DNA of 57,679 nt, from the NCBI RefSeq assembly GCF_004078655.1, contig NZ_RZNC01000009.1:1-57679 (forward strand), written 5' to 3'. A model generated the notes under the pieces. The model saw only the letters and a list, made by a program, of their open reading frames with translations, had not been told where the DNA came from and ran no database searches. Both the position numbers and the translations under genes were made by a program. Positions 6,621 to 21,521 of this stretch are shown here, one piece after another (position 1 is the stretch's first letter; every line of letters begins with the position of its first letter). The DNA comes from Labedella populi (lineage in GTDB: Bacteria > Actinomycetota > Actinomycetes > Actinomycetales > Microbacteriaceae).

Positions 6621-7733
6621 TCAGGGTTCGACAGGCGCGCTCGGCGTGGAAGCCGGCGCCGGAGACGGAGACTCGGGAGACGGAGACTCGGGCACGACCG
6701 GCGCCGGCTGCGATCCGCTTTCCCCGTCCTTCTCCGTCGCGCAGGTCTCGTGGCCTCCCGCGAGCGGCTGCACCGCATCGAACGGCGGTGCCGGAGTTTC
6801 GAAGGTCGCGGGGTCGGGAACCACGTCACCGTCGCCGAAGCGCGCGTGGAAGAGCGGGAAGACGTTCCATCCCGATCCGGGATTCGTGTCCGGATTGGGC
6901 ACGAGCGCGGTTTCGACGCCCTCGTCGTAGGCGATGAGCCAATCGTCGCTCCCGCCCGAACCGACGGCGAGAGGGTGGCCGTCCTGGTCGAAGAGCTGCA
7001 CCCCGACGAGCGGCGCACCCGCGCAGTCGTAGGCGAAGACGTTCGTGACCTGTGCGCCGTTCGCGCTGAGCTCCTGCGGGGCGACCTCGATCTCGTCGTA
7101 CGCGTAGCTCGCACCGATCCCCGCACGGAAGGACGCCTCCGCGACGAGACCGGGGAGTGCCAAGATCGCGACGACGCTCACCACGGTCTTCGCGATCCGC
7201 AGCCACGCCCAGGGCAACCACCGCCCACGGCCCCACTGCACACTCACGACGACGACTCCGGCGAGAAGGAGCCAGCCGGTCAGCTCCGTGGGCAGCGGGC
7301 CGAGAGCACCGAACATGAAGACGATTGCGAACACGACCCAGCCGCGCAGCACCCACCAGGCCGGTCGGAGCGTGACGAGGAAGTCGAGCACGGCCGCGAC
7401 GGCCGCGTTCCCGCGGCGCTCCTGCACCCACGCCGAACCGTTTCTCCACATGCGTTTGAAGCCGCCGAACCACTCGTCGTCGGGGCGGCGGGAGTCACGC
7501 GGGGGCAGGCCGGCGGCGGCGCGCAACTCGTCCGCGTACTCGCGGGCATCGCCGAGCGGTTCGCCGGAGTCCTCGCGCTGCTCGATGAGGTCGGCCTCGA
7601 GCCCGTCGACGAGCTCCTCGACCTCGTCCGGCGGGAGGTCGTCGAGGTGGGAGCGGACCGCGGCAGCGAAGCGAGCGACGTCATCGTCGTGCGCCGCGTC
7701 GACACCACCGTCGAAGGTGTTCGTTGTCGTCAT
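6621..7733 (-). CDS. HAAS-domain membrane protein partnered with PadR
   Basis: This 370-aa protein has N-terminal helices with LPPDEVEELVDGLEADL and a downstream REYADELRAAAGLP, the pattern of HAAS-type (DUF1700-like) domains that accompany PadR regulators. About three membrane helices lie at roughly 118-150, 152-165 and 175-205. A probably extracellular domain follows and ends in a Pro/Ser/Glu-rich tail (about 335-370). The start codon overlaps the stop of the PadR gene (ATGA at 7730-7733), so the two are translationally coupled. Such pairs are common in Firmicutes and Actinobacteria, but the molecular role of the membrane partner is not settled. Confidence 0.7.
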   Translation of the reverse strand: MTTTNTFDGGVDAAHDDDVARFAAAVRSHLDDLPPDEVEELVDGLEADLIEQREDSGEPLGDAREYADELRAAAGLPPRDSRRPDDEWFGGFKRMWRNGSAWVQERRGNAAVAAVLDFLVTLRPAWWVLRGWVVFAIVFMFGALGPLPTELTGWLLLAGVVVVSVQWGRGRWLPWAWLRIAKTVVSVVAILALPGLVAEASFRAGIGASYAYDEIEVAPQELSANGAQVTNVFAYDCAGAPLVGVQLFDQDGHPLAVGSGGSDDWLIAYDEGVETALVPNPDTNPGSGWNVFPLFHARFGDGDVVPDPATFETPAPPFDAVQPLAGGHETCATEKDGESGSQPAPVVPESPSPESPSPAPASTPSAPVEP

Positions 7734-8086
7734 CGTGCTACTCCGATCGAGGGGATCGTGTCGGCGGGGTTCCCGGCGATCACGCGAGTGAGGGTGGCGG
7801 AGAAGTCGGTCCAGGCGGTGCGCTGCTCGGCGAGGAGCTCTCGGCCCTCGCGGTTGATGCCGTAGTACTTGCGGTGCGGCCCGCCGTCCGATGGCACGAC
7901 GTACGTCGTGAGCGCTCCGGCGGCATACAGCCGGCGGAGGGTGCCGTAGACCGACGCCTCCCCGACCTCGTCGAGTCCGGCGGCGCGTAACCGCCGGACC
8001 ACGTCGTACCCGTAGCCGTCGTCCTGCTCGATGACGGCGAGTACCGCCGCGTCGAGCACCCCCTTGAGGAGCTGTGTGGTGTCCAT
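7730..8086 (-). CDS. PadR-family transcriptional regulator
   Basis: This 118-aa winged-helix regulator begins MDTTQLLKGVLDAAVLAVIEQ and carries GYGYDVVRRLRAAGL, EASVYGTLRRLYAAGALT and GPHRKYYGI, the standard PadR signature with the conserved Tyr residues. ATG 8086 is chosen because AGGAGG sits six bases upstream; a longer open frame to 8122 has no such site. It is coupled to the HAAS membrane protein and probably represses both genes from the repeat pair at 8100-8128. Confidence 0.9.
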   Translation of the reverse strand: MDTTQLLKGVLDAAVLAVIEQDDGYGYDVVRRLRAAGLDEVGEASVYGTLRRLYAAGALTTYVVPSDGGPHRKYYGINREGRELLAEQRTAWTDFSATLTRVIAGNPADTIPSIGVAR

Positions 8087-8099
8087 AGAACCTCCTGCG

Positions 8100-8128
8100 A
8101 TGCACGGTACCACGGAATGCACAGTACC
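8100..8128 (-). promoter_or_regulatory. Direct-repeat candidate operator before padR
   Basis: Two copies of ATGCACRGTACC on the + strand (8100-8111 and 8117-8128), 17 bases apart and just upstream of the ribosome site of the padR gene. PadR proteins usually autoregulate from such sites. The assignment rests on position and repetition only. Confidence 0.45.
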
Positions 8129-8195
8129 GCGAGGAACGCGGATGTGGGTGTCACTGCAGGCCGTCGGAAGCGGAGCACGACCGGCGGAGTCGCGC

Positions 8196-8220
8196 TGTAG
8201 ATTGAATATATTTATTGGGA
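8196..8220 (+). promoter_or_regulatory. A+T-rich promoter/operator before the mannan regulator
   Basis: TTGAATATATTTATTG at 8202-8217 is an A+T island in otherwise GC-rich DNA. TATATT can serve as a -10 box, with GAAGGA as the ribosome site before GTG 8244. It resembles the A+T segments before the GH125 operon and before the secreted GH76 gene. Confidence 0.4.
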
Positions 8221-8243
8221 CGGCTCTCGAGAAGGACGGTCAC

Positions 8244-9347
8244 GTGCTCTATCGCCAGGTGTACGACGCGCTCCGCGCCCGTATCGTGGACGGCCGCTAC
8301 GCCGTGGGCGACAAGCTGCCCTCCGAGGCCGAGCTGTCCGAGGAGTACTCGGTCAGCGCGATCACCGTGAAGCGGGCCCTCGACCTCCTCCGCACCGACG
8401 GGTTCATCGTGCGCCGACCGCGACTTGGAACGTTCGTGACGAGCGCGACCCCGAACGGGACGACGCCGACGGAACCTGCTCCGCGCACCCGCCCGCTTAT
8501 CGGGTGCGTCGTCACGAACTTCGACGACACCTTCGGCAGCCGCGTCGTCGAGGGGCTCCTCTCCGGGGCCGGCGTCGACGATCCCGTCATCCTCATGCGG
8601 TCGATGGGCGATCACGATCTCGAGGACGCGAGCATCCGCTCGCTCATCGACTCGGGGGTCTCGGGTCTCGTCCTGCAGCCGAGTTCCTCCGAGTTCATCC
8701 CACCGGCGGCGCTCGAACTCGTCACCCGGCGCTTCCCGCTCGTCATCCTCGACCGCGTCTTCGACGGCATCCCCGTCTCAGCGGTCCGCTCCGACAACCT
8801 CGCCGGAGCCATGAGCGCCACCGAGCATCTGCTCACCCTCGGGCACCGCAGCGTGGGATTCCTGAGCGCGGCGAGCCATGTCTCCTCGAGCGAGGAGCGA
8901 CGGAACGGCTGGGTGCACGCGCACGCGGCCTTCCACCGCCCCCTCGACGACACGGCCGAACTGCGCACGCTCGACTCGACCATCCCGGGCAGCACGACGA
9001 GCGCCGAGGACGACATCCAGCGGATCGTGGCCTTCGTCCGCGAGCACCCCCATGTCACCGCGTACCTCGCGGCGGAGTACAACATCGCATTGCTCTTGCG
9101 TGAAGCCTGCCGCCGGCTCGGGCTGAGCATCCCCGACGACGTCTCCGTCGTCTGCTTCGACCACCCGGATGCCGCCTTCGACGCGAGCCTCTTCCGCTTC
9201 ACGCACGTGCGCCAGCAGCAGAGCGCCATCGGCGAGCGCGCGATCGACGCCGTGCGGGCGCAGATCGCCGCCCCCGGCTCGATCGAGAAGGTGCTGCTCC
9301 CGACGGAGCTCGTGCTCGGCGCCTCGACGGCCCCGCCCCGCGCCTGA
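8244..9347 (+). CDS. GntR/LacI hybrid (AraR-like) sugar-responsive regulator of the mannan locus
   Basis: The 367-aa protein joins a GntR winged helix (1-70: VYDALRARIVDGRYAVGDKLPSEAELSEEY, then VSAITVKRALDLL) to a LacI-type periplasmic-binding-protein domain (about 80-365), which includes PDDVSVVCFDHPDAAF. This architecture is known from AraR, where the C-terminal domain binds a sugar and releases DNA. GTG 8244 is supported by GAAGGA six bases upstream and by the family N-terminus LYRQVYDAL. It faces the GH76/ABC/GH125 operon end to end, so it is the obvious candidate sensor of manno-oligosaccharides or mannose (inference). Confidence 0.88.
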   Translation: MLYRQVYDALRARIVDGRYAVGDKLPSEAELSEEYSVSAITVKRALDLLRTDGFIVRRPRLGTFVTSATPNGTTPTEPAPRTRPLIGCVVTNFDDTFGSRVVEGLLSGAGVDDPVILMRSMGDHDLEDASIRSLIDSGVSGLVLQPSSSEFIPPAALELVTRRFPLVILDRVFDGIPVSAVRSDNLAGAMSATEHLLTLGHRSVGFLSAASHVSSSEERRNGWVHAHAAFHRPLDDTAELRTLDSTIPGSTTSAEDDIQRIVAFVREHPHVTAYLAAEYNIALLLREACRRLGLSIPDDVSVVCFDHPDAAFDASLFRFTHVRQQQSAIGERAIDAVRAQIAAPGSIEKVLLPTELVLGASTAPPRA

Positions 9348-9382
9348 GTCACTCGCCACCCCGCTTCCCCTGTCCCCACGCA

Positions 9383-9452
9383 GCATTTGCGTACGCAACT
9401 GCCGACGGCGGGTGGAATTTCACCCGCAGGAGCGAGTTGCGTACGCAAATGC
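9383..9452. repeat. Nested perfect palindrome, 18-bp arms
   Basis: GCATTTGCGTACGCAACT at 9383-9400 is perfectly inverted at 9435-9452. Each arm itself holds the palindrome TTGCGTACGCAA. Between them lies a second 7-bp hairpin (GCGGGTG 9408-9414, CACCCGC 9421-9427). It occupies the gap between the convergent ends of the regulator gene and the GH76 gene, so a bidirectional terminator is plausible. Confidence 0.85.
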
Positions 9453-9509
9453 CGGAGAGGGGTGGGTTCCGGGCGGTGGGGAGGGGTGAGGTGGGGAGGG
9501 GGATCGGGG

Positions 9510-10694
9510 TCAGCGCGTCTCGAGCGTCGCGCGCTGCTCGATCGCCATGATCGCGCTGAGCTGGGTCGAGTACGGGATCGACTCGACGGAACTCACCGAC
9601 CAGTCGTTCGCGGGGCGCAGCCACTCGCCGTCGAACGCCGTCGCCCACAGCACATCGGTGCCTCGGCGCACGAAGCCCTCGAGTTCGGCGCGCTCGGCGT
9701 CGCGTCCCGCGGCCGCGAGCACGAGCGTCACGCAGCCGAGGTAGCGGTAGAAGACGCCCTTGAAGAGGCCCTCGTCACCGCCCTCGCCCTCGTCGCGGAA
9801 GACGACACCATCACTCAACTCCGCGATCGCGGTGCGCGCCGTGCGCACGGCTCGGTCGAGGAGCGCCGTGTCGCCCGTGCTCTGCGCGAGCTCGACCGCA
9901 GCCCCGATGTAGAGACCCTGGTTGTAGGTGAAACGCCACTGCGTGTCGACGCGGCCGTCACCCTCGCGGTTGATGCCGTCCTCGACGAAGCCGTCGTCGC
10001 CCACGAGGTGGGTCTCGAGCCACTGGAACGCCGTGGTCGCATAGCCGCGGAAATCGCGATCCCCGGCCTCGCCCTCGGGCACGACGCGCTCGAGCCGCAG
10101 CGACAGGATCACGAGCGGACCGTTCGCCGGCGTGTTCTTGTACTCGAGCTGCTGCTTCCGCCACGCGAGGCTCGCCCCGCCGGCGTCGTTCCAGCCCTCC
10201 GCGATCACGTGGTCCCAGATCGCGACCGCATCGGCGAGGTAGGACTCGCGCCCCGTCGCCCCGTGCAGCCGCACGATCGCGAGCGCGAACCACAACATGT
10301 CGTCGAAGTAGTCGTTGAAGAGCTGACCGCCGTTGCGTTCGACGATGTTGCGGTAGCCCTCCTCGGCCTGATCCCGCCACGCCGCGTCGCCCGTGCGCTC
10401 GAACGCGTCGAGACGCGCGTCGATCACGTGGGCGAGCCACCAGTAGTTGAACGTCTCGGGGACGCCGGTCCCGGCGGGATGGCTGTTCTCGAGGAACTGC
10501 GGCCACTCCGCCCCGAAGTAGTGATCGAGACTGCGCTGCGCGACGTCGGCGCGGTGGGACCACTCGGCGCCGGCGCTGGTGCTGGTGCTGGTGCTGGTGC
10601 TGGTGCTGGTGCTGGTGCTGGTGCTGGTGCTGGTGCTGGTGCTGGTGGTGGTGGTCGAGGCCGCCGTGGCGGGTGCGGGGGTCGTGCTGGTCAT
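9510..10694 (-). CDS. GH76 alpha-1,6-mannanase, cytoplasmic type
   Basis: The 394-aa protein matches the (alpha/alpha)6 barrel of GH76 endo-alpha-1,6-mannanases. The catalytic pair is Asp129-Asp130 in FNDYFDDMLWFALA, with FTYNQGLYIGAAVEL later in the barrel. It lacks a signal peptide. The N-terminal 40 residues are instead a Thr-Ser dipeptide run encoded by a 6-bp microsatellite, so it should act in the cytoplasm on imported oligosaccharides. It is the last gene of the GH125-permease-permease-binding protein run, 59 bases after the binding-protein gene. GH76 is otherwise known mainly from secreted fungal and Bacteroidetes enzymes. Confidence 0.88.
   Translation of the reverse strand: MTSTTPAPATAASTTTTSTSTSTSTSTSTSTSTSTSTSTSAGAEWSHRADVAQRSLDHYFGAEWPQFLENSHPAGTGVPETFNYWWLAHVIDARLDAFERTGDAAWRDQAEEGYRNIVERNGGQLFNDYFDDMLWFALAIVRLHGATGRESYLADAVAIWDHVIAEGWNDAGGASLAWRKQQLEYKNTPANGPLVILSLRLERVVPEGEAGDRDFRGYATTAFQWLETHLVGDDGFVEDGINREGDGRVDTQWRFTYNQGLYIGAAVELAQSTGDTALLDRAVRTARTAIAELSDGVVFRDEGEGGDEGLFKGVFYRYLGCVTLVLAAAGRDAERAELEGFVRRGTDVLWATAFDGEWLRPANDWSVSSVESIPYSTQLSAIMAIEQRATLETR
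10575..10646 (-). repeat. Hexanucleotide microsatellite, 12 units, inside the GH76 gene
   Basis: Twelve uninterrupted GCTGGT units (+ strand) encode the Thr-Ser tail near the GH76 N-terminus. Six-base slippage preserves frame but changes tail length. Confidence 0.95.
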
Positions 10695-10753
10695 GTTTCT
10701 CCGTTTCGGAAAGAGTGAGGGGGGGGGGAGGGCCGGGGGGCTCTCGGACAGCG

Positions 10754-12007
10754 TCAGCCGCGCGCGTCCGCGAGGATCTGGTCGCCCTGCTCCTGGGCCT
10801 GGTCGAGCGCCTGCTCGGCCGTGAGCTCACCGACGAGGAACTGTTCGAGAGCCGGGACGAGGGCCTTGCCCTCGACGTCCGAGAAGCCTTCGACGCTCGG
10901 ACGGACCTCGGCGTACTCGAGCGTCTCGATGAAGGCCGCGTAGTGCGGGTCCTCGGTGAAGTACGGGTCGTTCGCCGCCTCGATGTTCGCAGGGATCCAG
11001 CCCGAGATCTTCGCGAAGTCGACACCGTTCTGAGGCTCGGTCGTCCACCACTTCATGAGCTCCCACGCCCCCTCGACGTTCTGCGCACCCTCGGGGATCA
11101 CGAGACCGAAACCACCCATGTAGGCGCCGGTGTCACCGTCGGGACCGGCGACGGGCGGGGTGATGCCGTACTCGAGGCCCTCGACGGCATCGAGGGTGCT
11201 GAGCGCCCACGGGCCGTCGTACTTCATCGACATCGTGCCTTCGGCGAAGGGCGTCGCGCCGTCGCCGAAGCCGGGCTCGAAGACGCCCTCGTCCATGAGC
11301 TCCTGCCAGAACTCGAGGACCTCGAGGCCCTCGGGGCTGTTGAACGCCGTCTTCGTCTCGTCCTCGTTGAGGAGCGAGCCGCCCGCTTGCGCGAGGTACT
11401 GGTTGAACAGACCGGGGTCGCTGAGGTCGAAGCCGGCGCGCTCGAGCGTGCCGCCGTCGTTCTCGGTGAGCGCCACCGCCGCGGTCTTCAATTCGTCCCA
11501 CGTCGTCGGCGGAGTGATGCCGGCCTCGTCGAGCTGCGTCTGGTTGTAGAACAGAGAGCGATTGTCGACGAGCAGTGGCAGCCCGTAGAGGTCCTCTCCG
11601 ACCTCCATCTCGCTGAGCGCCGGCTGGTAGAACGCGTCGAGATCGATGTCGTCCTCCTCGACGAGCTCGTCGATCGGGGCGAGTGCACCCTTCGGGGCGT
11701 AGAGCGACGTCTGGTACCGGTCCCACAGCACGATGTCGGGGACTTCGCCGCCGGCGAGCGCCGTGAGCAGCTTCTCCTCGACGAGTTCCTGCGCGACGTA
11801 TGAGACCTCGTAGTCGTCTTGCGACTCATTGAACGCGGCCGCCTGGGCCTCGAGCTGGTCGACCTGCTCGCCCGACCATGAGCCCCACATGACGACCTTC
11901 TCGGCTCCGCTCGCGGTGGTGTCGCCGCCGCTCGATCCGCAGCCGCTCAAAGCGACGACGCTCAGGGCGGCGACGCCGATGCCGAGTGCCGTGGTGATCT
12001 TCTTCAT
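10754..12007 (-). CDS. Sugar ABC transporter substrate-binding lipoprotein
   Basis: The 417-aa precursor starts MKKITTALGIGVAALSVVAL and has a lipobox LSGC (Cys about 23), so the mature protein is anchored outside the membrane. Motifs typical of family 1 sugar binders are visible: VVMWGSWSGEQ near the N-terminus, GGEVPDIVLWDRYQ, TPPTTWDELKTAAVAL and YMGGFGLVIPEGAQN. ATG 12007 follows GGAG. It is encoded after the two permeases in the GH125-to-GH76 operon, so alpha-1,6-manno-oligosaccharides are the likely ligand (inference). Confidence 0.93.
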   Translation of the reverse strand: MKKITTALGIGVAALSVVALSGCGSSGGDTTASGAEKVVMWGSWSGEQVDQLEAQAAAFNESQDDYEVSYVAQELVEEKLLTALAGGEVPDIVLWDRYQTSLYAPKGALAPIDELVEEDDIDLDAFYQPALSEMEVGEDLYGLPLLVDNRSLFYNQTQLDEAGITPPTTWDELKTAAVALTENDGGTLERAGFDLSDPGLFNQYLAQAGGSLLNEDETKTAFNSPEGLEVLEFWQELMDEGVFEPGFGDGATPFAEGTMSMKYDGPWALSTLDAVEGLEYGITPPVAGPDGDTGAYMGGFGLVIPEGAQNVEGAWELMKWWTTEPQNGVDFAKISGWIPANIEAANDPYFTEDPHYAAFIETLEYAEVRPSVEGFSDVEGKALVPALEQFLVGELTAEQALDQAQEQGDQILADARG

Positions 12008-12034
12008 CGAATGTCTCCTTGATTGGTGGTGATG

Positions 12035-12076
12035 TGACTGTGAACGGGCGACTGCGAACGGGTGACTGCGAACGGG
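12035..12076. repeat. 14-bp tandem repeat, 3 units, inside the ABC operon
   Basis: Three units of the form YGACTGYGAACGGG follow one another in the gap between the second permease stop and the binding-protein start. The position could affect mRNA processing or relative expression of the binding protein, but no strong stem is visible. Confidence 0.8.
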
Positions 12077-12098
12077 TGTGAGCAAGGGGGCCGTCTCG

Positions 12099-13127
12099 TC
12101 ACTTGCCGCCGACGTGAGCGACGCCCTCGATGATGTAGCGCTGCGCGACGATGAAGATGAGCAGCACGGGGAGGCTCGCGACGACGGTGCCCGCCATGAG
12201 CGGGCCGAACGCCGTCTCGTAGTTGTTGACGAACGAGGACAGCCCCACCTGGACGGTCATCATGTCGGGGTTGTTGAGCACGATGAGCGGCCAGAGGAAG
12301 TTGTTCCACCCCGCCTGGAAGCTCAGGATGGCGAGCACGGCCATGCCCGCTTTCGCGAGGGGGAAGTAGATCTGCGCGAAGATGCGGAACTCGCTCGCGC
12401 CGTCGATGCGCGCGGCCTCGCCGAGCTCGTCGGGCATTGTCTCGAAGAACTGCTTCATGAAGAACACCGCGAAAGCGCCGGCCGCGCCCGGCACGATCAC
12501 CGCCGCGTACGTGTTGAGGAGGCCGAGACCGCCCTGGCCGAGGACGTCGTTCCCGCCGAAGAGCGGGAAGCCGCGCAGGATCAGGAAGGTCGGGATCATC
12601 GTGACGATGCTCGGGATCATGAGGGAGGCGAGGAACAGGGCGAAGACGCCGGACCGGCCCCGGAACCGCAGCTTCGCGAGGGCGTATCCGCCGAGACCGC
12701 CGAAGAACACGTTCGTGATCGCGCCGCCGATCCCGAGGATGAGGGAGTTCACGAAGTAGCGCGCGAAGGGGACGTCCTCGAACACGGTGAGGTAGTTCTC
12801 GATCGTGGGGTCCGCCGGGATGAGGTTGAGCGCTCCCGCGAGGATCTCGGTTGCGGGCTTGAGCGACGTCGAGAGCGTCCAGACGAGCGGCGCGATCGTG
12901 ATGATGCTGAGGACGATCACCGCGACGTACCAGATCAGCGATCCGACCCGCGAGCGGGTGCTTCGGCGGCGGCGAGCGGGGATGTCCGCCACCGGCGTTG
13001 GCGTTGGCGTGGGCGTGGGTGTGGGTGTGGGTGTGGGTGTGGACGTGGATGTTGCCGACGCCGTCGGGCGGTGGCGCTCGACGGGGCCGGATCCGGCCGC
13101 GGTCGTGTTGGACTCGAGAGCGGTCAT
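12099..13127 (-). CDS. Carbohydrate ABC permease, MalG/LacG type
   Basis: The 342-aa inner-membrane permease has six hydrophobic helices and the EAA motif ELGEAARIDGASEFRIFAQIYFP, which contacts the ATPase. An N-terminal cytoplasmic tail carries a Thr-Pro repeat made by a 6-bp repeat near 13010-13040. The start ATG overlaps the stop of the upstream permease (ATGA, 13124-13127). No ATPase gene is in the locus, so a shared MsiK/MsmX-type ATPase encoded elsewhere is expected. Confidence 0.93.
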   Translation of the reverse strand: MTALESNTTAAGSGPVERHRPTASATSTSTPTPTPTPTPTPTPTPVADIPARRRRSTRSRVGSLIWYVAVIVLSIITIAPLVWTLSTSLKPATEILAGALNLIPADPTIENYLTVFEDVPFARYFVNSLILGIGGAITNVFFGGLGGYALAKLRFRGRSGVFALFLASLMIPSIVTMIPTFLILRGFPLFGGNDVLGQGGLGLLNTYAAVIVPGAAGAFAVFFMKQFFETMPDELGEAARIDGASEFRIFAQIYFPLAKAGMAVLAILSFQAGWNNFLWPLIVLNNPDMMTVQVGLSSFVNNYETAFGPLMAGTVVASLPVLLIFIVAQRYIIEGVAHVGGK

Positions 13128-14173
13128 CGCGCACTCACCGCCTTCCGCGCCAGGCGGCGCGATCGTCGCTCCCCCGCGTCGCCGCTCGGGTTGCTGAGCC
13201 GCGCGTTCGCGAGCGAGAAGATCAGGATGATGAGGAAGAGGACGAACGACAGCGCCGAGGCGTAGCCCATCTCGAGGGCACCGAAGCCCTTGTTGTAGAT
13301 GTAATAGACCATCGTGACGGTCGAGTTGCCCGGTCCGCCCTTCGTGAGGACGTAGGCCTGGTCGAACACCTGGAAGGCGCCGATGATGAGCAGCGTCGTG
13401 ACGAGGAACGTCGTGCGTGACAGCGAGGGCAGCGTCACGTACCGGAACTGCTGCCACGCGTTGGCGCCGTCGAGCCGCGACGCCTCGTAGAGGTCGCCGG
13501 GAACACCCTGGAGCCCTCCGAGGAAGATGATCATGTTGACGCCGAAGCCCGCCCACACGCTCATGAGGACGATCGCGGGCATCGCCCACTGCGAGTCGTA
13601 GAGCCACGCGGGACCGTCGATGCCGAACCAGCCGAGGGCGACGTTGAGCAGGCCCTTCTGGGGGTTGAGCAGCCAGTACCAGATGGTCGCCGTCGCGACG
13701 GTCGACGAGACGACCGGAATGTAGAAGAGCGTGCGGAACAGGCGGACGGCGCGGCGACTGCGGTTGAGCAGCAGCGCGGCACCGAGGGCCACGACGAGGC
13801 CGAGCGGCACGTAGAGGAGCGTGTAGTAAGCCGTGTTCCGGAGGGCGATCCAGAAGAAGGCGTCCTGGAAGATGCGCGTGTAGTTCTCGAGCCCCACCCA
13901 TTCGGAGTCGCCCACGATCGCGTAGTCCGTGAAACTGATGACGGCCGCCATGACGATGGGCAGCAGCATGAAGACCGCGAACAGGGCGAGCGGCACGGCG
14001 AGGAACGCCCAGGCGTTCCAGCGCATCTGCCGAGCGGTGGGGTGGGCAGGACGACGTCCGCCGGAGCCGGAGCCGCGCCGCGGCGGCCCCCCGGCCGCGC
14101 CCGGGGATCCGACGACGTCGGCGGGAAGCGCTCCGGAGGGCAGGGTGCCCGACGCGACAGGCTGAACACTCAT
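13124..14173 (-). CDS. Carbohydrate ABC permease, MalF/LacF type
   Basis: The 349-aa permease has a Gly/Pro-rich cytoplasmic tail (1-45), six membrane helices, the segment FTDYAIVGDSEWVGLENYTRIF typical of sugar permeases, and the EAA motif DLYEASRLDGANAWQQFRYVTLP. It forms the channel with the downstream permease. Its start overlaps the GH125 stop (ATGA, 14170-14173), which ties import directly to intracellular mannan breakdown. Confidence 0.94.
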   Translation of the reverse strand: MSVQPVASGTLPSGALPADVVGSPGAAGGPPRRGSGSGGRRPAHPTARQMRWNAWAFLAVPLALFAVFMLLPIVMAAVISFTDYAIVGDSEWVGLENYTRIFQDAFFWIALRNTAYYTLLYVPLGLVVALGAALLLNRSRRAVRLFRTLFYIPVVSSTVATATIWYWLLNPQKGLLNVALGWFGIDGPAWLYDSQWAMPAIVLMSVWAGFGVNMIIFLGGLQGVPGDLYEASRLDGANAWQQFRYVTLPSLSRTTFLVTTLLIIGAFQVFDQAYVLTKGGPGNSTVTMVYYIYNKGFGALEMGYASALSFVLFLIILIFSLANARLSNPSGDAGERRSRRLARKAVSAR

Positions 14174-15555
14174 GACAGGCTCCCCGCCGCCACGGGCTCG
14201 CGCGTGAGGGTGCGGAGTCCGGCGACGTCGAGGACGAGCTCGCAGAACATGGCGTTGGCCCAGGAGAACCAGGGTCGTGTGTAGACGCCCGGGTCGTCGA
14301 CGTGGAAGGACTCGTGCATGACGGACGTGCCCGCGTCGGTGTCGAGGAGTGTGCGGAGGACGCGGCGCTTGTCATCGGGGTCGGTGCTCGTGAGCCCCTC
14401 GACGGCGAGCGCGATCGGCCAGATGTGGTCGTCGGGGGTATGGGGGCTCCCGACGCCGCGGCCCGCAGTGCCCGCGGAGTACGTGGGGTTCGCGTCACTC
14501 AGGATGAACGAGCGGGTCGCACGGTACAGCGGGTCGTCGACGCCGCACCATCCCAGCAGCGGGAGCGACAACAGGCTCGGCACGTTCGCGTCGTCCATGA
14601 GGAGTCGTCCACCGAATCCGTCGACCTCATAAGCGTAGATCGGGACCGTCTCCCCACCGGGTGACGGGGCCTGCACGACGGCGTGCTCGCGGATCCCGGC
14701 GACGATCTCGGCGCGCAACGCTGACGCGTCGGCGGCGAGGGCGTCGTCGCGGAGCACCTCCGACGCGATCTCCTCGATGTCGGCGAGGACGGTCGCGGCG
14801 AACGCGTTCCCTGGCACGTTGTAGCCGTAGGTGCACGCGTCGTCACTCGGCCGGAACGCCGACCAGGACATCCCCGTCGGAGCGGTGAGCGAACCCCGTC
14901 CCTCACGCACGAGCGTGTCCGTGAGCGGTGCATCGTGCCTCTCGAACCGGTACGACGAGCGGTTCTCGTGGTCCTGCTCGATTCGCCAGAGCTCGATCAC
15001 ACGACGGACGGCGTCTCGGAAGCGCCCGTCGAGGTGATCGGTGCGCCCGGTCGCGCGGTGGATGTCGCTCGCGAGACGGATCGGGTAGCAGAGCGAGTCG
15101 ATCTCGTACTTGCGCTCCCAGATCCTCGGGGAGGAGTCGGTGAGATCACCCTGATGGCCCGCGCCGTTCGCCTCAGCATTGAAGGCGTTCGCGTACGGGT
15201 CGTGCGCGATGTCGTCGAGCTGTCGTCGGTTGATCGCGACGAGGAGGTCGGCGAGCTGCGGGGTGGAGGCCGCGAAGTGCAGGTAGGGGGTGAGTTGGGT
15301 CGTCGAGTCGCGCAACCACATGGCGGGGATGTCCCCGGTGAGCACGAACACCGTGCCGTCGGGCAGCGGTGTCATCGTCGCTTCGAGCGTGTCGGCGAAG
15401 CACCGCGCGAAGACTGCGGCGGTGCGTTCATCGGTCCGTTCGGCGACGCTCTCCGTCACCGAACGCACGAGTTCGGGTATCCACATCGACGTCGATCCTG
15501 CCCGGGCGCTCGTCGCGCCGACGGTGCCGCTCAGGGCTGTTGCGTCACTCTTCAC
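14170..15555 (-). CDS. GH125 exo-alpha-1,6-mannosidase, cytoplasmic
   Basis: The 461-aa enzyme carries the GH125 hallmarks: LTGDIPAMWLRDST (72-85), RKYEIDSLCYP (149-158), GMSWSAFRPSDDAC (about 228-241), LMDDANVPSLLSLP and HESFHVDDPGVYTRPWF with WANAMF near the C-terminus. GH125 enzymes remove alpha-1,6-linked mannose from non-reducing ends by an inverting, metal-independent mechanism. There is no signal peptide, so it acts on imported oligosaccharides. Start GTG 15555 is backed by GGAGGAGAGG upstream. It is the first gene of the five-gene operon and is transcribed from the A+T-rich region at about 15615-15650. Confidence 0.93.
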   Translation of the reverse strand: MKSDATALSGTVGATSARAGSTSMWIPELVRSVTESVAERTDERTAAVFARCFADTLEATMTPLPDGTVFVLTGDIPAMWLRDSTTQLTPYLHFAASTPQLADLLVAINRRQLDDIAHDPYANAFNAEANGAGHQGDLTDSSPRIWERKYEIDSLCYPIRLASDIHRATGRTDHLDGRFRDAVRRVIELWRIEQDHENRSSYRFERHDAPLTDTLVREGRGSLTAPTGMSWSAFRPSDDACTYGYNVPGNAFAATVLADIEEIASEVLRDDALAADASALRAEIVAGIREHAVVQAPSPGGETVPIYAYEVDGFGGRLLMDDANVPSLLSLPLLGWCGVDDPLYRATRSFILSDANPTYSAGTAGRGVGSPHTPDDHIWPIALAVEGLTSTDPDDKRRVLRTLLDTDAGTSVMHESFHVDDPGVYTRPWFSWANAMFCELVLDVAGLRTLTREPVAAGSLS

Positions 15556-15614
15556 TGAGTTCCTCTCCTCCGGCGGCGAGCGTCACCTCCGAAGGGGCCG
15601 CGTCGCCGTCCTCC

Positions 15615-15650
15615 TATTGTGCATGTTAAATATGCTTTAGCAAGCCACAA
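15615..15650 (-). promoter_or_regulatory. A+T-rich promoter/operator before the GH125 operon
   Basis: GTTAAATATGCTTTAGCAAG at 15625-15644 is an A+T island about 70 bases before the GTG of GH125. Its core AAATATGCTTTA resembles AATATACTTTTA before the divergent secreted GH76 gene, so a common regulator is possible. Confidence 0.4.
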
Positions 15651-15764
15651 TTCCTGCAACGTGTCACGTGGGGACGACCTTCGCGACCTCCGCACCGAAC
15701 GCTTGCCCCGATTTGCGCCAATCGAGCCCATGATATTGACGGCCGCCGCTCTGAGCACGACACT

Positions 15765-15790
15765 AGCTTTCAATATACTTTTATTGTTCA
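15765..15790 (+). promoter_or_regulatory. Promoter and candidate operator before secreted GH76
   Basis: CAATATACTTTTATTG (15771-15786) has CAATA/TATTG ends in inverted orientation and contains TATACT, a good -10 box. AGGAGG at 15791-15796 is the ribosome site for GTG 15801. An operator overlapping the -10 box would suit repression by the GntR/LacI protein. Confidence 0.45.
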
Positions 15791-15800
15791 AGGAGGAACA

Positions 15801-17327
15801 GTGAAGACGATCTCACGGCTCGTGATCACCGCCGTCGCCGCCCTGGCTCTCGTGGCACCGGCCCACGCACCGACCCCGGCCTCAGCATTCACCGCCGACC
15901 AGGCCACAGAAGCGTTCGAGGACTTCCTCGACGTCTACTGGGACGACTCGGCGGATTACTTCTTCACCTACAGCGACCACCAGATCCATCCGGAGCACGC
16001 CCACGGGCCACAAGGCGGTCTGTACACCGACTACTGGTGGGAGGCGCAGCTCTGGGAGATGGTCATGGACCGCTACGAGCGCACGGGCGACGCGCAATCG
16101 CGCCAACTCATCGACGACGTCTTCGCCGGCTTCCAGGCCCAGTACCCCGACTTCAGCGAGAACGACTGGAACGACGACATCGGCTGGTGGGCCCGCGGCA
16201 GCGTTCGGGCCTTCGAGCTCACGGGTGACCCCGACTACCTCACCGCCGCCGAGACGATGTTCGCGTTCATCGCCGATTACGAGGACACCACCTACGGCGG
16301 CGGGATCTGGTGGAAGAACGTCGACGTCGGAGACGGGTCACGCAACGAGAAGAACGTCGCGACGAACGCGACCGCCGTCTACACGGCGATGCGGCTCTAC
16401 GAAGCGACCGGGGACCCGGCCTACCGCGCGACCGCAGTCCGCCTGTACGACTGGCTCGACGCGAACTTCAACAATGCCGGCCATTTGCGTGATCACGTGG
16501 CGGGCACCGGGCAGTACACCGATTGGGACTGGACCTACAACCAGGGCAACTTCGCGGGGGCCGCTCTCGAGCTCTACCTCGACACGGGTTCATCGGCTTA
16601 CCTCGACGATGCGACCGACGCCGTCGATTGGGCCGTCGCGAACCTCACCTCGTCCGGGATTTTCCTGCGGGAGGGCATCGACGACACGGGCGGCTTCAAG
16701 GCGATCCTCACCCGCAACATCCGCGCGCTCATCGACGAGGCAGGCCAGACGCAATACGAACAGCTCCTGACCGACAACGCGACCCAGGCGGCGAACCACG
16801 TCAACGCTGCGGGCGTCGGCGGCTACGACTGGACGGCCCCGACGCCCGACCTCTCGACCACGGCGCTGCAGAGCCTCGCGGCGGGAGCGACCGTCGCGAT
16901 CCTGCAGCAGGCCGCGCCGGACGGCTACACCGGCGTCGTCGAGGGGTCGGGGGTCTACGAGGCCGAGAACGCGGTGCGTGACGGCGTCGACTCGGAGAGC
17001 ACCGCGGCCGGTCGGAGTGGCCGCGGTTACCTCGCGGGCTGGAACGCGAGCGGGACGAGCGTGACGTTCCACGTCAACGTCGTCGACGGCGGGACTTACC
17101 CCGTCGAGTTGCGTTACGCCGCGGCCGCCGGGCACGCGGTGCGCTCGCTGAGCGTCAACGGCGGCGCCGCGACATCCGTGACGTTCGCGGGAACGTCGGA
17201 ATGGGACGCGTGGGCGGCCGTGTCGACGACGGCGACCCTCGTGCCGGGGCACAACACCATCACGGTGTCGTACGGCCCGGGCGACGCGAACTTCCTCAAC
17301 CTCGACCGGCTGGCGCTCGCGCTGTAG
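15801..17327 (+). CDS. Secreted GH76 alpha-1,6-mannanase with C-terminal carbohydrate-binding module
   Basis: The 508-aa precursor has a signal peptide cleaved near ASA-FTADQ (residue 29). The GH76 barrel spans about 30-370, with catalytic Asp125-Asp126 in NDWNDDIGWWARG and YTDWDWTYNQGNFAGAALEL later. A beta-rich module follows (about 380-508) with YEAENA at its start and NFLNLDRLAL at its end, the pattern of CBM35/CBM6 modules. It should cut alpha-1,6-mannan backbones outside the cell and stay bound to polymer. It is transcribed divergently from the GH125 operon. Confidence 0.92.
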   Translation: MKTISRLVITAVAALALVAPAHAPTPASAFTADQATEAFEDFLDVYWDDSADYFFTYSDHQIHPEHAHGPQGGLYTDYWWEAQLWEMVMDRYERTGDAQSRQLIDDVFAGFQAQYPDFSENDWNDDIGWWARGSVRAFELTGDPDYLTAAETMFAFIADYEDTTYGGGIWWKNVDVGDGSRNEKNVATNATAVYTAMRLYEATGDPAYRATAVRLYDWLDANFNNAGHLRDHVAGTGQYTDWDWTYNQGNFAGAALELYLDTGSSAYLDDATDAVDWAVANLTSSGIFLREGIDDTGGFKAILTRNIRALIDEAGQTQYEQLLTDNATQAANHVNAAGVGGYDWTAPTPDLSTTALQSLAAGATVAILQQAAPDGYTGVVEGSGVYEAENAVRDGVDSESTAAGRSGRGYLAGWNASGTSVTFHVNVVDGGTYPVELRYAAAAGHAVRSLSVNGGAATSVTFAGTSEWDAWAAVSTTATLVPGHNTITVSYGPGDANFLNLDRLALAL

Positions 17328-17333
17328 CGGGAT

Positions 17334-17368
17334 CCGGTCCCTGAGCTCGTCGAGGGCTCAGGGACCGG
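17334..17368. terminator. REP-like hairpin between convergent genes
   Basis: CCGGTCCCTGAGC (17334-17346) is perfectly inverted at 17356-17368 around a 9-base loop. The core CCCTGAGCTCGTCGAGGG resembles the CTGAGCTTGTCGAAG palindrome that recurs in many bacterial genomes. It separates the ends of the GH76 and azoreductase genes. Confidence 0.75.
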
Positions 17369-17386
17369 AGAGCGAGCTGCGCGGAC

Positions 17387-18046
17387 CTACGCCGCGGAGC
17401 CCTGGCCGCGACGTGCCGCGATCTCTTGGCCCGAGACGCGGGCCTGCTCCTCGGCCTGGACCTTGATCTCGGCGGCGATGTCGGTGAAGGCGTCCATCGC
17501 CGGGTTCACACCCACGAGGGTGAAGGGCCGCTGGACGACGCGGAGGTCGAGGCCCCAGACGTCGGCGAAGGCGCGGCGCAGCCACGGTGTGGAGTGGTCC
17601 CAGCCCTCCTTCGGCGATCCCGGGTTGTAGTTGCCGCCGAGCACCGTGACGAGGGTCGCGGGCTTGCCGTTCAACGCCGTGCCGCTCGGGTTGATGCGCT
17701 CGTCCGTGTAGGCGAGGTCGAACCACGTCTTGACGTGCTGCGAGACGCCGTAGTTGTAGAGCGGGATGGCGAAGAGGATCGCGTCGGCGTTCACGAGTTC
17801 GTCCGCGAGAGTCGTGGCGAGGGCGATCGCCTCTCGCTGCTCGGGCGTGCGGTCGGCCTCGGGCGTGAAGCGACCGACGACGGAGTTCTGCCACGCGGTC
17901 GCCGAGATGGGGTCGGCGGCGAGGTCACGGCGGAGGACGGTGGAATCGGGGTGGGCCGAGACCCACTGCTCCTCCACGATGTCGCCGAGTGCGTGGCTGG
18001 CGGACGTGGCGGGCATGATGCTGGCGTCGAGGCGGAAGAGGGTCAC
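17387..18046 (-). CDS. FMN-dependent NADH-azoreductase family flavodoxin-fold reductase
   Basis: This protein of about 219 aa begins with GTG 18046 (VTLFRLDASI), which matches family N-termini; an ATG at 18085 would add 13 unlikely residues. AIPLYNYGVSQHVKTWFDL is the FMN-binding loop of AzoR proteins, and VTVLGGNYNPGSPKEG is the second cofactor loop. These enzymes reduce quinones and azo compounds with NAD(P)H in the cytoplasm. The gene is divergent from an HxlR regulator, an arrangement like the YodB/AzoR1 quinone response of Bacillus. Confidence 0.85.
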   Translation of the reverse strand: MTLFRLDASIMPATSASHALGDIVEEQWVSAHPDSTVLRRDLAADPISATAWQNSVVGRFTPEADRTPEQREAIALATTLADELVNADAILFAIPLYNYGVSQHVKTWFDLAYTDERINPSGTALNGKPATLVTVLGGNYNPGSPKEGWDHSTPWLRRAFADVWGLDLRVVQRPFTLVGVNPAMDAFTDIAAEIKVQAEEQARVSGQEIAARRGQGSAA

Positions 18047-18087
18047 TGTTCGTCCAATCGGAAGGAAGTGCGAGTGAGGAGTCATTA

Positions 18088-18503: not shown

Positions 18504-20947
18504 CGCTCGAATCGCCAGTCGGTGATCCACGACGGGTCCTCGCCGTGCTCGTAGGCGTAGGCGCGCGCTTCCGTGCGCGCGAGGTGCCACTCGTCCGCCA
18601 GCCTCCGCATCCCCGGCTTTCCCTCGAGCCCGGGAATGCGGTGCAACACGTCGAGCGCGAGACGGTACCGGTCGAGGTCGTTGAGATGGACCATGTCGAA
18701 GGGAGTCGTCGTCGTCCCCTTCTCGACGAAGCCGCGCACATGGATGTTGCCATGATTGGTCCGGCGGTAGGCGAGTTGGTGCACGAGCGTCGGATAGCCG
18801 TGGAACGCGAAGATCACCGGCCTGTCCCGCGTGAAGAGGGCGTCGAACTCCTCGTCGGGCAAGCCGTGGGGGTGCTGATCCGGGTCCTGCAGCTTCATGA
18901 GATCGGAGACGTTCACGACGCGGATCCGCAGACCCGGCACGCGCTGACGCAACAGTTGAGCGGCGGCGATCGTCTCGAGCGTCGGCACGTCTCCGGCGCA
19001 CGCGAGCACGACGTCCGGATCCACGCCCGAATCGGAGTCGGCCGCGTCTCCCCCGTCGAGCTCCGTCCCGGCCCAGTCCCATCGCCCGAGCCCGGCATCG
19101 ACGTGGGCGCGCGCCTCCTCGAGCGACAACCACGCGGGCTGCTCCTGCTTCCCCGCGACGACGACGTTGATGCGGTCCTCGGTGCGGAAGACGTGCTCCA
19201 TCGTGACGAGCAGCGTGTTCGCATCGGTCGGCAGATACACCCGCACGACGTCGGCCTGCTTGTTCACGACGACGTTGAGGAAGCCGGGGTCCTGATGTGA
19301 GAAGCCGTTGTGGTCCTGCCGCCACACGTGGGAGGAGAGCAGGTAGGTGAGCGACGGGACGGGCTTGCGCCACGGTACGCCCGCCGCGGACTCGAGCCAC
19401 TTCGCGTGCTGGTTGAACATCGAATCGACGATGTGGACGAACGCCTCGTACGTCGTGATGAGACCGTGGCGGCCGGTGAGCAGGTAGCCCTCGAGCATGC
19501 CCTGCATGAGGTGCTCGCTCAGCGCCTCGATGACGCGGCCGTCGGTCGCGAGGTGCTCGTCCGTGGCCACCGTCGGCAGCTGCCACGCGCGATCGGTCTC
19601 CTCGAACACCGCCTGCAGTCGGTTCGACGCCACCTCGTCGGGGCCGAAGAGCCGGAACGTCGTGGGGTTCGCCGCGACGACGTCGCGCAACCACCCTCCG
19701 AACACCCCGGTCGCGCCCGCGGTCTCCGTGCGGGCGCCGTCGCCGTCGGGGTCGACCGCCACCGCATGCGGGGCGATGTCGGGGAGCACGAGCGGTTCGA
19801 CGGTTCCGCCGTTCGTGTGCAGACTCGCGCTCATCCGGAGTCCGCCGACGGGGCGGAGCGCATCGAGCACGGCGGACGGCGAACCATCGGACTCGAAGAG
19901 CTCCTCCGGACGATACGACCGCAGCCATCGCTCGAGTTGGGCGAGGTGGTCCGGGTTGTCGCGCACTCCGGAGAGCGGCACCTGGTGCGCGTGGAACGTG
20001 CCCTCGACCGGGGCGCCGTCGACCTCCGCCGGACCGGTCCACCCCTTGGGCGTGCGGAGGACGATCATCGGCGGTCGTTCGACGGTGCGGTCGGCGGTGC
20101 GGTCGGCGGTGCGGTCGTCGAGCGTCTCGGCGTCGCGTGCACTCGTCCAGATCCGGCAGATGCGGTCGTAGGCGTCGTCGAGCGCCCGGGCGAAACTCCG
20201 GTGCACGAGCATCGGATCCTCACCGTCGAAGCCCCCGCTCACGAGGATCGGCTCGTAGCCGTGGCCGCGGAAGAACTCGACGAGCTGCGTCTCGGGGATG
20301 CGCGAGAGGATTGTCGGATTCGCGATCTTGTAGCCGTTGAGGTTGAGGATCGGCAGGACGGCGCCGTCCGAGCGCGGATCGAGGAACGCGTTGCCCCACC
20401 AGCTCGTCGCGAGCGGTCCCGTCTCGGCCTCCCCGTCGCCGATGACGCACGCGACCACGAGGCCAGGGTTGTCGAGGGCCGCGCCGTACGCGTGCATAAG
20501 GGAATAGCCGAGCTCACCGCCCTCGTTGATCGAACCGGGTGTCTCGGGAGCGGCGTGGGAGGGGATCCCGCCCGGGAAGGAGAACTGCCGCACGAGTCGC
20601 CGGAGACCGGCCTCGTCGAGCGTCACGTCGGGGAACAACTCGGAGTAGGTGCCGTCGAGCCACGCGTTCGCGACCATCGCCGGACCGCCGTGCCCGGGGC
20701 CGCAGACGTAGACCGTCGGCACCCCCTTCTCCACGATGAGTCGGTTGAGGTGGGCATAGACGAGGCTGAGCGCGGGAGAGGTCCCCCAGTGCCCGAGGAG
20801 CCGGGGCTTGATGCTGTCGGGCTGCAGACTCTCCCGCAGGAGGGGGTCGCCCATGAGGTAGATCTGCCCGACGCTCAGATAGTTCGCGGCGCGCCACCAG
20901 GCGTCGACCGCCTCGAGTGAATCACTCGACCCGTCCTCAGTACTCAT
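18500..20947 (-). CDS. xfp: Xylulose-5-phosphate/fructose-6-phosphate phosphoketolase
   Basis: The 815-aa thiamine-diphosphate enzyme splits xylulose 5-phosphate (and often fructose 6-phosphate) with phosphate to acetyl phosphate and an aldose phosphate. Visible family motifs include WRAANYLSVGQIYL near the N-terminus, GHWGTSPALSLVYAHLNR, GPGHGGPAMVANAWLDGTY, VACVIGDGEAETGPLATSW with the ThDP GDG motif, and SHVWRQDHNGFSHQDPGFL. ATG 20947 is preceded by GGGGGTGGAAG. A 12-bp repeat (20084-20119) inserts three Arg-Thr-Ala-Asp-like repeats in a surface loop. No acetate kinase gene is adjacent. Confidence 0.96.
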   Translation of the reverse strand: MSTEDGSSDSLEAVDAWWRAANYLSVGQIYLMGDPLLRESLQPDSIKPRLLGHWGTSPALSLVYAHLNRLIVEKGVPTVYVCGPGHGGPAMVANAWLDGTYSELFPDVTLDEAGLRRLVRQFSFPGGIPSHAAPETPGSINEGGELGYSLMHAYGAALDNPGLVVACVIGDGEAETGPLATSWWGNAFLDPRSDGAVLPILNLNGYKIANPTILSRIPETQLVEFFRGHGYEPILVSGGFDGEDPMLVHRSFARALDDAYDRICRIWTSARDAETLDDRTADRTADRTVERPPMIVLRTPKGWTGPAEVDGAPVEGTFHAHQVPLSGVRDNPDHLAQLERWLRSYRPEELFESDGSPSAVLDALRPVGGLRMSASLHTNGGTVEPLVLPDIAPHAVAVDPDGDGARTETAGATGVFGGWLRDVVAANPTTFRLFGPDEVASNRLQAVFEETDRAWQLPTVATDEHLATDGRVIEALSEHLMQGMLEGYLLTGRHGLITTYEAFVHIVDSMFNQHAKWLESAAGVPWRKPVPSLTYLLSSHVWRQDHNGFSHQDPGFLNVVVNKQADVVRVYLPTDANTLLVTMEHVFRTEDRINVVVAGKQEQPAWLSLEEARAHVDAGLGRWDWAGTELDGGDAADSDSGVDPDVVLACAGDVPTLETIAAAQLLRQRVPGLRIRVVNVSDLMKLQDPDQHPHGLPDEEFDALFTRDRPVIFAFHGYPTLVHQLAYRRTNHGNIHVRGFVEKGTTTTPFDMVHLNDLDRYRLALDVLHRIPGLEGKPGMRRLADEWHLARTEARAYAYEHGEDPSWITDWRFER
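20084..20119 (-). repeat. 12-bp coding tandem repeat, 3 units, in phosphoketolase
   Basis: Three units of GGTGCGGTCGGC (+ strand, last unit with one change) encode RTADRTADRTVE in the phosphoketolase. The length keeps frame. Confidence 0.9.
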
Positions 20948-20982
20948 GCTTCCACCCCCGTCGGTGCTCGACGCCGTCACCG

Positions 20983-21342
20983 TCAGGGAGCCGGCGCCTC
21001 GCCGTCCGTCGGCTGCGCGTCCGTCGGGAGTCCGGCGGGGGCGCCCGTGCCGGCTCCGTCGCCCGCTCCGTCCAGCTGGCTCCAGTCGATCGACGCGTCG
21101 TCGACCATCGGGCCCTGGCGGCCCGCTCCGGGATCGTCGGTGCGCTCTCCGGCCCCGTCGGGGCCGTCGGCGCCGTCGCGGCCGTCGGGCAAGCCGCCGC
21201 CGGTCGCGGTCGCGCTGTCGTTCGCGTCGTCGCCCGGAAGGGCTGTGCCGACGCCGTCGTCTCCGAATCCACCGGTGCCGAGTCCGTCCGGGGCCAGCTC
21301 GGGATCGACGCCTTCGGGACCGGTGCTGCTCTGATCAGTCAT
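20983..21342 (-). CDS. Small acidic low-complexity protein
   Basis: This 119-aa protein starts MTDQSSTGPEGVDPEL at ATG 21342 with GAAGGA upstream. It is rich in Gly, Asp, Pro and Ala, has no membrane helix or known domain, and ends in a Pro/Asp-rich tail after PMVDDASIDWSQLDG. It is probably disordered. It lies upstream of xfp on the same strand, 35 bases from the xfp start, so it may share that transcript. No function can be offered. Confidence 0.5.
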   Translation of the reverse strand: MTDQSSTGPEGVDPELAPDGLGTGGFGDDGVGTALPGDDANDSATATGGGLPDGRDGADGPDGAGERTDDPGAGRQGPMVDDASIDWSQLDGAGDGAGTGAPAGLPTDAQPTDGEAPAP

Positions 21343-21460
21343 GTCCTTCACGCTACGTCGGGCGCCCGCCGACGTCAGCGCCTTGCCAGAGCCGTGAACG
21401 GGCGCTAGGCAGGAGGGCTTTCCCCAGAGCCAGTTCCAGTCGTAGCATGTCGGAAACAAG

Positions 21461-21476
21461 TGGGCTATACCATTTG
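21461..21476 (+). promoter_or_regulatory. DasR/HutC-type operator (dre-like)
   Basis: AGTGGGCTATACCATT agrees at 13 of 16 positions with the DasR-responsive element of Streptomyces (A-C/G-TGGTCTAGACCA-C/G-T). It overlaps a possible -10 box and lies 45 bases before the PTS gene start. The matching regulator type is encoded at 24024. Confidence 0.55.
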
Positions 21477-21521
21477 TGCATCCCCGTCATCTCTCCCCGC
21501 CGTCCCAGGACAGGAGCTCCC

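Follow-up and report, generated by a model that had tools for sequence, protein, structure and literature searches.

A predicted alpha-1,6-mannan utilisation locus of Labedella populi, its Gram-positive relatives and a candidate operator shared by its promoters

In the Bacteroidota, the polysaccharide utilisation loci of Bacteroides thetaiotaomicron and Salegentibacter act on fungal alpha-mannan with enzymes of glycoside hydrolase (GH) families GH76 and GH125 (PMC10154615, PMC9213526). In B. thetaiotaomicron, a GH76 enzyme works at the cell surface, and a second GH76 together with GH125 finishes the backbone after import (PMC10154615). The same two families meet in a seven-gene locus of the actinobacterium Labedella populi (Microbacteriaceae), which is the subject of this report. 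The locus lies in a stretch of 57,679 nucleotides, here called the window, which is one contig (C14) of an assembly of 3.42 Mb in 15 contigs. It is read here, with a probability of roughly 0.82, as a Gram-positive polysaccharide utilisation locus (gpPUL) encoding a pathway on alpha-1,6-mannan in general. Yeast cell walls contain a mannose polymer of this type. Unlike it, the Bacteroidota loci, as the cited passages describe them, hold several GH92 genes and import through the outer membrane; B. thetaiotaomicron adds GH38 and GH99, and Salegentibacter has one GH76 only (PMC10154615, PMC9213526). Nor did a scan of the nine proteins encoded from 7730 to 18085 reveal any SusC/SusD-type import.

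Related arrangements have been described in Gram-positive bacteria. A predicted alpha-1,6-mannan cluster of Paenibacillus taichungensis I5 (V4D07_05390-05415) shares with the Labedella locus an extracellular GH76, an intracellular GH125, a regulator, a sugar-binding lipoprotein (SBP), permeases and the predicted substrate; it differs in belonging to the Bacillota and in being itself a prediction, and the passage describing it mentions neither a second cytoplasmic GH76 nor an operator (PMC12827396). In Streptococcus pneumoniae, the ATP-binding cassette (ABC) importer NgtS-NgtP1-NgtP2 takes up mannose-rich glycans with no ATPase gene nearby, MsmK being suggested as its ATPase, and GH125 is likewise predicted to be cytoplasmic (PMC5215778). 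There, however, the substrate is Man3-5GlcNAc, the importer lies apart from the mannosidase locus, and SpGH125 is accompanied by SpGH38 and SpGH92, with no GH76 named in the passage (PMC5215778). An operon of Bifidobacterium longum provides an actinobacterial GH125 that has been studied experimentally, although it serves high-mannose N-glycans with three GH38 enzymes beside the one GH125, and the passage names no GH76 (PMC10154615).

Two Listeria loci retrieved in the present analysis (L056 and L069) have the Labedella order of GH125, permease 1, permease 2, SBP and GH76, with the regulator convergent in L069 and upstream in L056. They differ in having no secreted GH76 in the flanks covered, the flank of L056 being short. 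The operon lmo0767-0770 of Listeria monocytogenes is presumably the same. Of its genes and their neighbours, lmo0766 and lmo0767 are given as sugar ABC permeases in one source passage (PMC2996996), and 3k7x, the structure of Listeria innocua Lin0763, is referred to as unpublished work (PMC9213526). Among the literature matches listed, a search that left subscription papers and preprints outside its scope, there was no functional study of lmo0767-0770, and none that examined a GH76/GH125/ABC locus of an actinobacterium or of Listeria by experiment.

A preliminary description of the locus, made from the same DNA, had called it unlike the alpha-mannan systems described in Bacteroides. This was overstated, given the pneumococcal combination of ABC import, cytoplasmic GH125 and unlinked ATPase (PMC5215778) and the P. 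taichungensis cluster (PMC12827396). Nor does its cytoplasmic endo-mannanase depart from Bacteroides, as had been proposed, since an outer and an inner GH76 form the B. thetaiotaomicron scheme according to the cited passages (PMC10154615, PMC9213526). The locus looks like a well-preserved example of a predicted alpha-1,6-mannan locus that recurs among Gram-positive bacteria, and not like a novel system.

Genes, enzymes and importer

Open reading frames (ORFs) and Pfam matches recover all seven genes named in the preliminary description, including a secreted GH76 with a carbohydrate-binding module (CBM) and a sensor of GntR/LacI type (Table 1). Read along the minus strand from 15555 to 9510, they run GH125, permease 1, permease 2, SBP and signal-less GH76. 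The secreted GH76 gene diverges from the GH125 promoter, and the regulator gene converges on the end of the operon. The start/stop overlaps reported between GH125 and the permeases are ATGA overlaps, one between GH125 and permease 1 and one between the two permeases. The two GH76 genes and the single GH125 gene are the only ones of their families in the assembly (whole-genome search, E up to 0.001). Together with the linked carbohydrate transport of SBP and two permeases and the linked GntR/Peripla_BP_3 regulator, they make up the gene complement of a gpPUL. The adjoining genes encode, by Pfam, a PadR regulator and a protein with a flavodoxin fold.

The predicted active sites are intact. GH125 matches 3qpf, taken here to be the pneumococcal GH125 enzyme, with 443 bits and 2nvp with 422 bits. 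Its acidic residues D215 and E392 (numbered from the ATG at 15486) stand in columns that show no variation across all 90 rows, the window's included, and these columns are presumably the catalytic residues. Family match and conserved acidic residues together predict an exo-alpha-1,6-mannosidase. Among solved structures, the inner GH76 is closest to Lin0763 (3k7x; 291 bits) and the outer one to 5m77, an alpha-1,6-mannanase (154 bits). Both GH76 proteins exceed the Pfam cut-off and retain the Asp-Asp pair, whose two aspartates are found in 52 of 52 aligned rows; the pair is given as the catalytic pair of the family (PMC9213526). It can thus be strongly inferred that both act on alpha-1,6-mannose. 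The earlier assertion that GH76 and GH125 act only on this linkage survives as a strong family-based expectation, backed by the intact residues, but not in its 'only', because BT2949 is described as a non-canonical GH76 member (PMC9213526; PMC4321491).

Hydropathy was the sole criterion for signal peptides. By this measure, the secreted GH76 and the SBP each have a single N-terminal hydrophobic segment, and no hydrophobic segment occurs in GH125 (scanned from the ATG at 15486) or in the inner GH76, as had been proposed for the latter. The GTG start of the regulator matches the position of the start in relatives, while GH125 has a GTG start with a ribosome-binding site and an alternative ATG at 15486. 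The C-terminal CBM35/CBM6 domain of the secreted GH76 (Pfam CBM_35 6e-14) is present in three of three relatives scanned. A scan of 8000-17500 for consensus promoters and terminators yielded nothing exceeding shuffled sequence.

Table 1. The seven genes of the locus and the candidate operator sites at its promoters, in window positions
Feature	Position	Strand	Details
Operator site 1, regulator's own promoter	8200-8217		GATTGAATATATTTATTG; 30.4 bits, rank 1 in window (leave-genus-out matrix)
Regulator, GntR helix-turn-helix and LacI-type sugar-binding domain	8244-9347	+	GTG start; Pfam GntR 2e-21, Peripla_BP_3 3e-24
Inner (predicted cytoplasmic) GH76, predicted endo-alpha-1,6-mannanase	9510-10694	-	Pfam GH76 2.5e-33; Asp-Asp at residues 131-132
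Sugar-binding lipoprotein (SBP) of ABC importer	10754-12007	-	SBP_bac_8 1.7e-39, also SBP_bac_1; lipobox LSGC in sequence
ABC importer permease 2	12099-13127	-	BPD_transp_1 1.7e-20; nearest NCBIfam UgpE, GlcU, MalG, all below cut-off
ABC importer permease 1	13124-14173	-	BPD_transp_1 2.1e-19; nearest NCBIfam UgpA, GlcT, MalF, all below cut-off
GH125, predicted cytoplasmic exo-alpha-1,6-mannosidase	14170-15555	-	Pfam 1.6e-143, 479 bits
Operator site 2, GH125 operon promoter	15615-15641		TATTGTGCATGTTAAATA / TGTTAAATATGCTTTAGC, overlapping, weaker; 15.9 and 13.4 bits, ranks 3 and 4
Operator site 3, secreted GH76 promoter	15767-15784		CTTTCAATATACTTTTAT; 22.7 bits, rank 2 in window
Secreted GH76, predicted endo-alpha-1,6-mannanase	15801-17327	+	GTG start; GH76 5e-37; Asp-Asp at residues 125-126

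The preliminary description was also right that the binding-protein importer comes without an ATPase: Pfam finds no ATPase gene within the locus. The genome contains one OB_MalK match (E up to 1e-5), which lies elsewhere and belongs to a protein of 366 residues with ABC_tran, OB_MalK and TOBE_2 domains. An SBP and two permeases without a linked ATPase, in a genome with an unlinked MalK-type ATPase, follow the pattern of shared-ATPase importers, and this single ATPase probably energises the mannan importer.

In an alternative reading, the importer and GH125 would act on mannose cores freed from glycoproteins, as those of S. pneumoniae or B. longum do. Such N-glycan scavenging would accord with the GH125 score of 443 bits against 3qpf and with ABC import lacking a linked ATPase, as in NgtS-P1-P2 (PMC5215778), yet Man3-Man5 glycans need no two endo-mannanases. 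Moreover, Pfam finds no endoglycosidase and no GH38 in the locus, although in N-glycan loci a GH38 typically accompanies GH125, according to the account consulted (PMC5215778). This alternative is considered very unlikely.

In the preferred reading, a pathway on alpha-1,6-mannan, the secreted GH76 would cut exposed chains, as its family and intact active site suggest, while the CBM35/6 domain may keep the enzyme near its substrate. The SBP would capture the resulting oligosaccharides for import by the two permeases, probably with the unlinked MalK-type ATPase. Inside the cell, long chains would be shortened by the signal-less GH76, and GH125 would remove mannose from the non-reducing end.

Recurrence in other genomes and the two GH76 groups

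Conserved synteny, which the preliminary description had proposed as a check, is found in both Actinomycetota and Bacillota. A scan of named genomes for GH125 gave at least 588 confirmed relatives, of which the best 80 were taken as loci, so that close kin are over-represented among them. Within the family, 10 of 199 genomes, counting the window's own, encode a GH125; ten further family stretches, from nine genomes, and the window bring the loci scored to 91. The six-gene core was defined as SBP, both permeases, GH125, GH76 and regulator, with thresholds chosen by the analyst. It is present in 22 of the best 80 similarity-fetched loci, in three of the ten family loci and in the window (26/91 in all). 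As it recurs in 25 other loci, the block is more than a chance association.

The SBP separates core loci from the others, scoring 609-700 bits with its profile against at most 120. High profile scores arise partly by construction, the profiles having been built from the window proteins and strong hits of the same ORF set, and the SBP split was therefore rerun with single-sequence BLAST. With the window protein as query, the SBP still scores at least 311 bits in the 26 core loci and at most 75 elsewhere. By BLAST, the regulator and, narrowly, the inner GH76 fail to separate core from other loci.

Actinobacterial carriers of the core are Microbacterium, Curtobacterium, Krasilnikoviella, Isoptericola, Sanguibacter, one actinobacterial metagenome-assembled genome (MAG) and three family genomes; those in the Bacillota are Listeria (two), Enterococcus gallinarum, Paenibacillus, Cohnella, Saccharibacillus and one Paenibacillaceae MAG. 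All 14 actinobacterial core loci have the Labedella gene order, with the regulator convergent in 13 (judged by domain position). The SBP gene stands ahead of the permease genes in nine of nine Paenibacillaceae loci, and GH125 comes last in the Enterococcus locus. Within the window's genus, the inner GH76 is present in three of four genomes, its own included. Two retrieved loci show further features. The proteobacterium Devosia sp. Leaf420 (L018) has a GH125 59% identical to that of the window, with an ABC importer adjoining on the other strand, and this GH125 was perhaps transferred between phyla. In another genus of the family, the mannan locus adjoins an ORF of 2609 residues with many SdrD B-like repeats (L096:12084-19913, minus strand), whose product is perhaps a surface protein.

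The history of the two GH76 proteins was followed in a tree of 52 domains of at least 200 bits, which excluded weaker GH76-like hits such as those in L014, L039, L061 and L091; it comes from a quick maximum-likelihood search with a midpoint root and carries a long-branch warning. On one side of a branch with support 100 stand 14 rows, among them the window's outer GH76, every one of which has a hydrophobic N-terminus; on the other stand 38 rows, of which 32 are signal-less and six are anchored proteins of Paenibacillaceae. The window's inner GH76 falls within a signal-less group (support 100) whose 17 rows belong to Actinomycetota, Listeria and Enterococcus. The signal-peptide label changes only twice on the tree, against about 16 times in shuffles, and on this basis the inner GH76 appears to be a long-standing component and not to have arisen from an outer enzyme by loss of the signal.

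A signal-less GH76 is present in 25 of the 26 core loci, the exception being L036. Within the flanks covered, an extracytoplasmic GH76 is found in 16 of the 26, ten of the secreted group and six anchored; flanks are short in L036, L056 and L078, where a secreted GH76 could lie outside the stretch, and in L053, which has two GH76 domains in one ORF, the better one alone was judged for a signal peptide. These counts hint at an 'import first, cut inside' system of Gram-positive bacteria across phyla, in which importer, GH125, regulator and cytoplasmic GH76 are the invariant core, the extracytoplasmic GH76 is optional and imported chains need an inner endo-enzyme. This extension of the pathway is tentative, and the doubts about it outweigh the confidence. 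If chains are imported long enough to need an inner endo-enzyme, many carriers would live on the fragments of others or on long undigested chains.

A candidate operator at the three promoters

The 14 actinobacterial core loci supplied 36 upstream regions for a de novo motif search, which yielded a palindrome of 18 bp, about GATTnAATATATTnAATC. Its log-likelihood is 286 (best of 60 starts), compared with 38-45 in six shuffled sets (best of 20 starts each); five loci (L016, L017, L019, L020 and L096) contribute identical sites from both sides of a divergent promoter. When the window was scored with a matrix that excludes its own genus, trained on 27 regions from 11 loci, the top four positions among the 57,679 bases all fell at the three promoters of the locus (Table 1; the two matches of site 2 start at 15615 and 15624), and the next best position reached 9.7 bits. 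Out of 500 column-permuted matrices, none matches the real three-promoter sum and one matches the real gap to the rest. Similar sites lie upstream of the regulator in relatives. As a control, the full matrix gave five hits of at least 17 bits in 409 kb from 20 actinobacterial loci that lack a close homologue of the regulator, all five hits being in a single locus (L101).

The palindrome, a predicted operator, is common to all three promoters. The GntR/LacI-type regulator would bind it at its own promoter and at those of the GH125 operon and the secreted GH76, most likely as a repressor, and an imported mannoside would lift the repression. This operator is newly defined here and, with the conserved cytoplasmic endo-mannanase, is among the most interesting features of the locus. 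Synteny, active sites and the shared operator agree with the proposal of the preliminary description that the seven genes form one pathway, with an outer GH76, ABC import, an inner GH76 acting with GH125, and one sensor.

Several findings weigh against this reading. The enzymes are linked to alpha-1,6-mannose by family membership alone, and the solved relatives of the SBP are distant (best 120 bits) and indicate no ligand. The genome stretches with GH92, the GH38s or the ATPase contain no operator site of at least 15 bits, and thus no co-regulated debranching was found. In the 12 core loci of the Bacillota, the best site lies at the regulator or operon promoter in six, which is not significant; since 54 of 500 permuted matrices do equally well, conservation of the operator across phyla is only suggestive. 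Finally, the regulator is not core-specific, since homologues of equal BLAST score also adjoin GH125 where this importer is absent (L041, L049, L052 and others). In five Paenibacillus loci (L041, L049, L052, L082 and L086), a close homologue of the regulator lies just upstream of GH125, with no such importer or GH76. The pair of regulator and GH125 may predate the mannan core or be more widespread than it.

Two other operator candidates were rejected. The motif TGTACGTACA, taken to be the core of an AraR-like operator, shows no excess in the window (six sites against 5.2 expected). A perfect pair of TTGCGTACGCAA at 9387-9448 was dropped because it lies between convergent genes and is repeated across the genome. 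This pair is part of a long hairpin at 9383-9452, between the regulator and the inner GH76 (fold z-score -8). The 18-base arm of the hairpin has 13 genome-wide matches with up to two mismatches, some being one palindrome read on both strands, against none for a reversed-pattern control. Pairs of such matches stand 52 bases apart at two other places in the genome. The hairpin is a dispersed intergenic repeat or terminator element.

Natural substrate and significance

The locus contains no debranching enzyme by Pfam, as the preliminary description had stated. For the genome as a whole this does not hold: it encodes a GH92 with CBM6 (an ORF of 1938 residues), a full GH38 and a further protein that matches GH38 weakly, all without the operator, and the GH38 matches are on contigs C10 and C1, apart from that of the locus. 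GH92 is present in 10, and a GH38 match in all, of 19 core-carrying genomes searched (out of 26; L017 and six Bacillota loci lay outside the search). A GH92 suspected from coordinates near the Curtobacterium locus was discarded, as L020 has no ORF of fitting length. Since carriers of the core span unrelated Gram-positive genera, fungal mannan is favoured as the probable natural source.

The same machinery could instead serve lipomannan or lipoarabinomannan shed by other actinobacteria. The backbone of lipomannan is alpha-1,6-mannose, and a locus without debranching enzymes, in a genome whose GH92 and GH38 genes lack the operator, would suit such a substrate. The genome does possess those GH92 and GH38 genes, however, and carriers of the core include Listeria, Enterococcus and Paenibacillaceae, to which fungal mannan should be at least as accessible. 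Foreign lipomannan thus appears an unlikely, though not negligible, natural substrate.

Turnover of the organism's own mannan or of a mannosylated envelope polymer is the least probable of the explanations considered. Self-recycling of the corynebacterial lipomannan type was rejected when MptB, the corynebacterial lipomannan mannosyltransferase, was not found in the genome although the C. glutamicum control was positive; one weak GT87 (mannosyltransferase-like) hit, of 29.1 bits against a cut-off of 25, remains in its favour. The patchy distribution of the trait, both in the family (GH125) and in the genus (inner GH76), is at odds with self-recycling, and a secreted enzyme with an importer and a regulator suggests a foreign substrate. 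The absence of MptB speaks against corynebacterial-type recycling but does not help to choose between fungal mannan and foreign lipomannan.

Further repeats and one other gene were noted in the window. Thirteen hexamer copies at 10575-10653 give the inner GH76 an N-terminal (Thr-Ser)n tract, which looks like a recent microsatellite expansion because the two relatives of the same genus have no long tract. A second hexamer array, of about nine copies (12994-13048), gives permease 2 a (Thr-Pro)n tract close to its N-terminus, and about three copies of a 14-mer lie between the permease 2 and SBP genes (12034-12078). Positions 20946-23384 encode a fused phosphotransferase system protein of 812 amino acids with EIIC-GAT and IIB domains, preceded by two ORFs without a Pfam match.

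The locus of L. populi would represent a compact, recurring Gram-positive counterpart to the alpha-mannan use of Bacteroidota, with a matching operator. It suggests a biological role for Lin0763 (3k7x), a structural-genomics protein. The substrate, the size of the chains imported and the regulation of the locus thereby become testable in an environmental actinobacterium.

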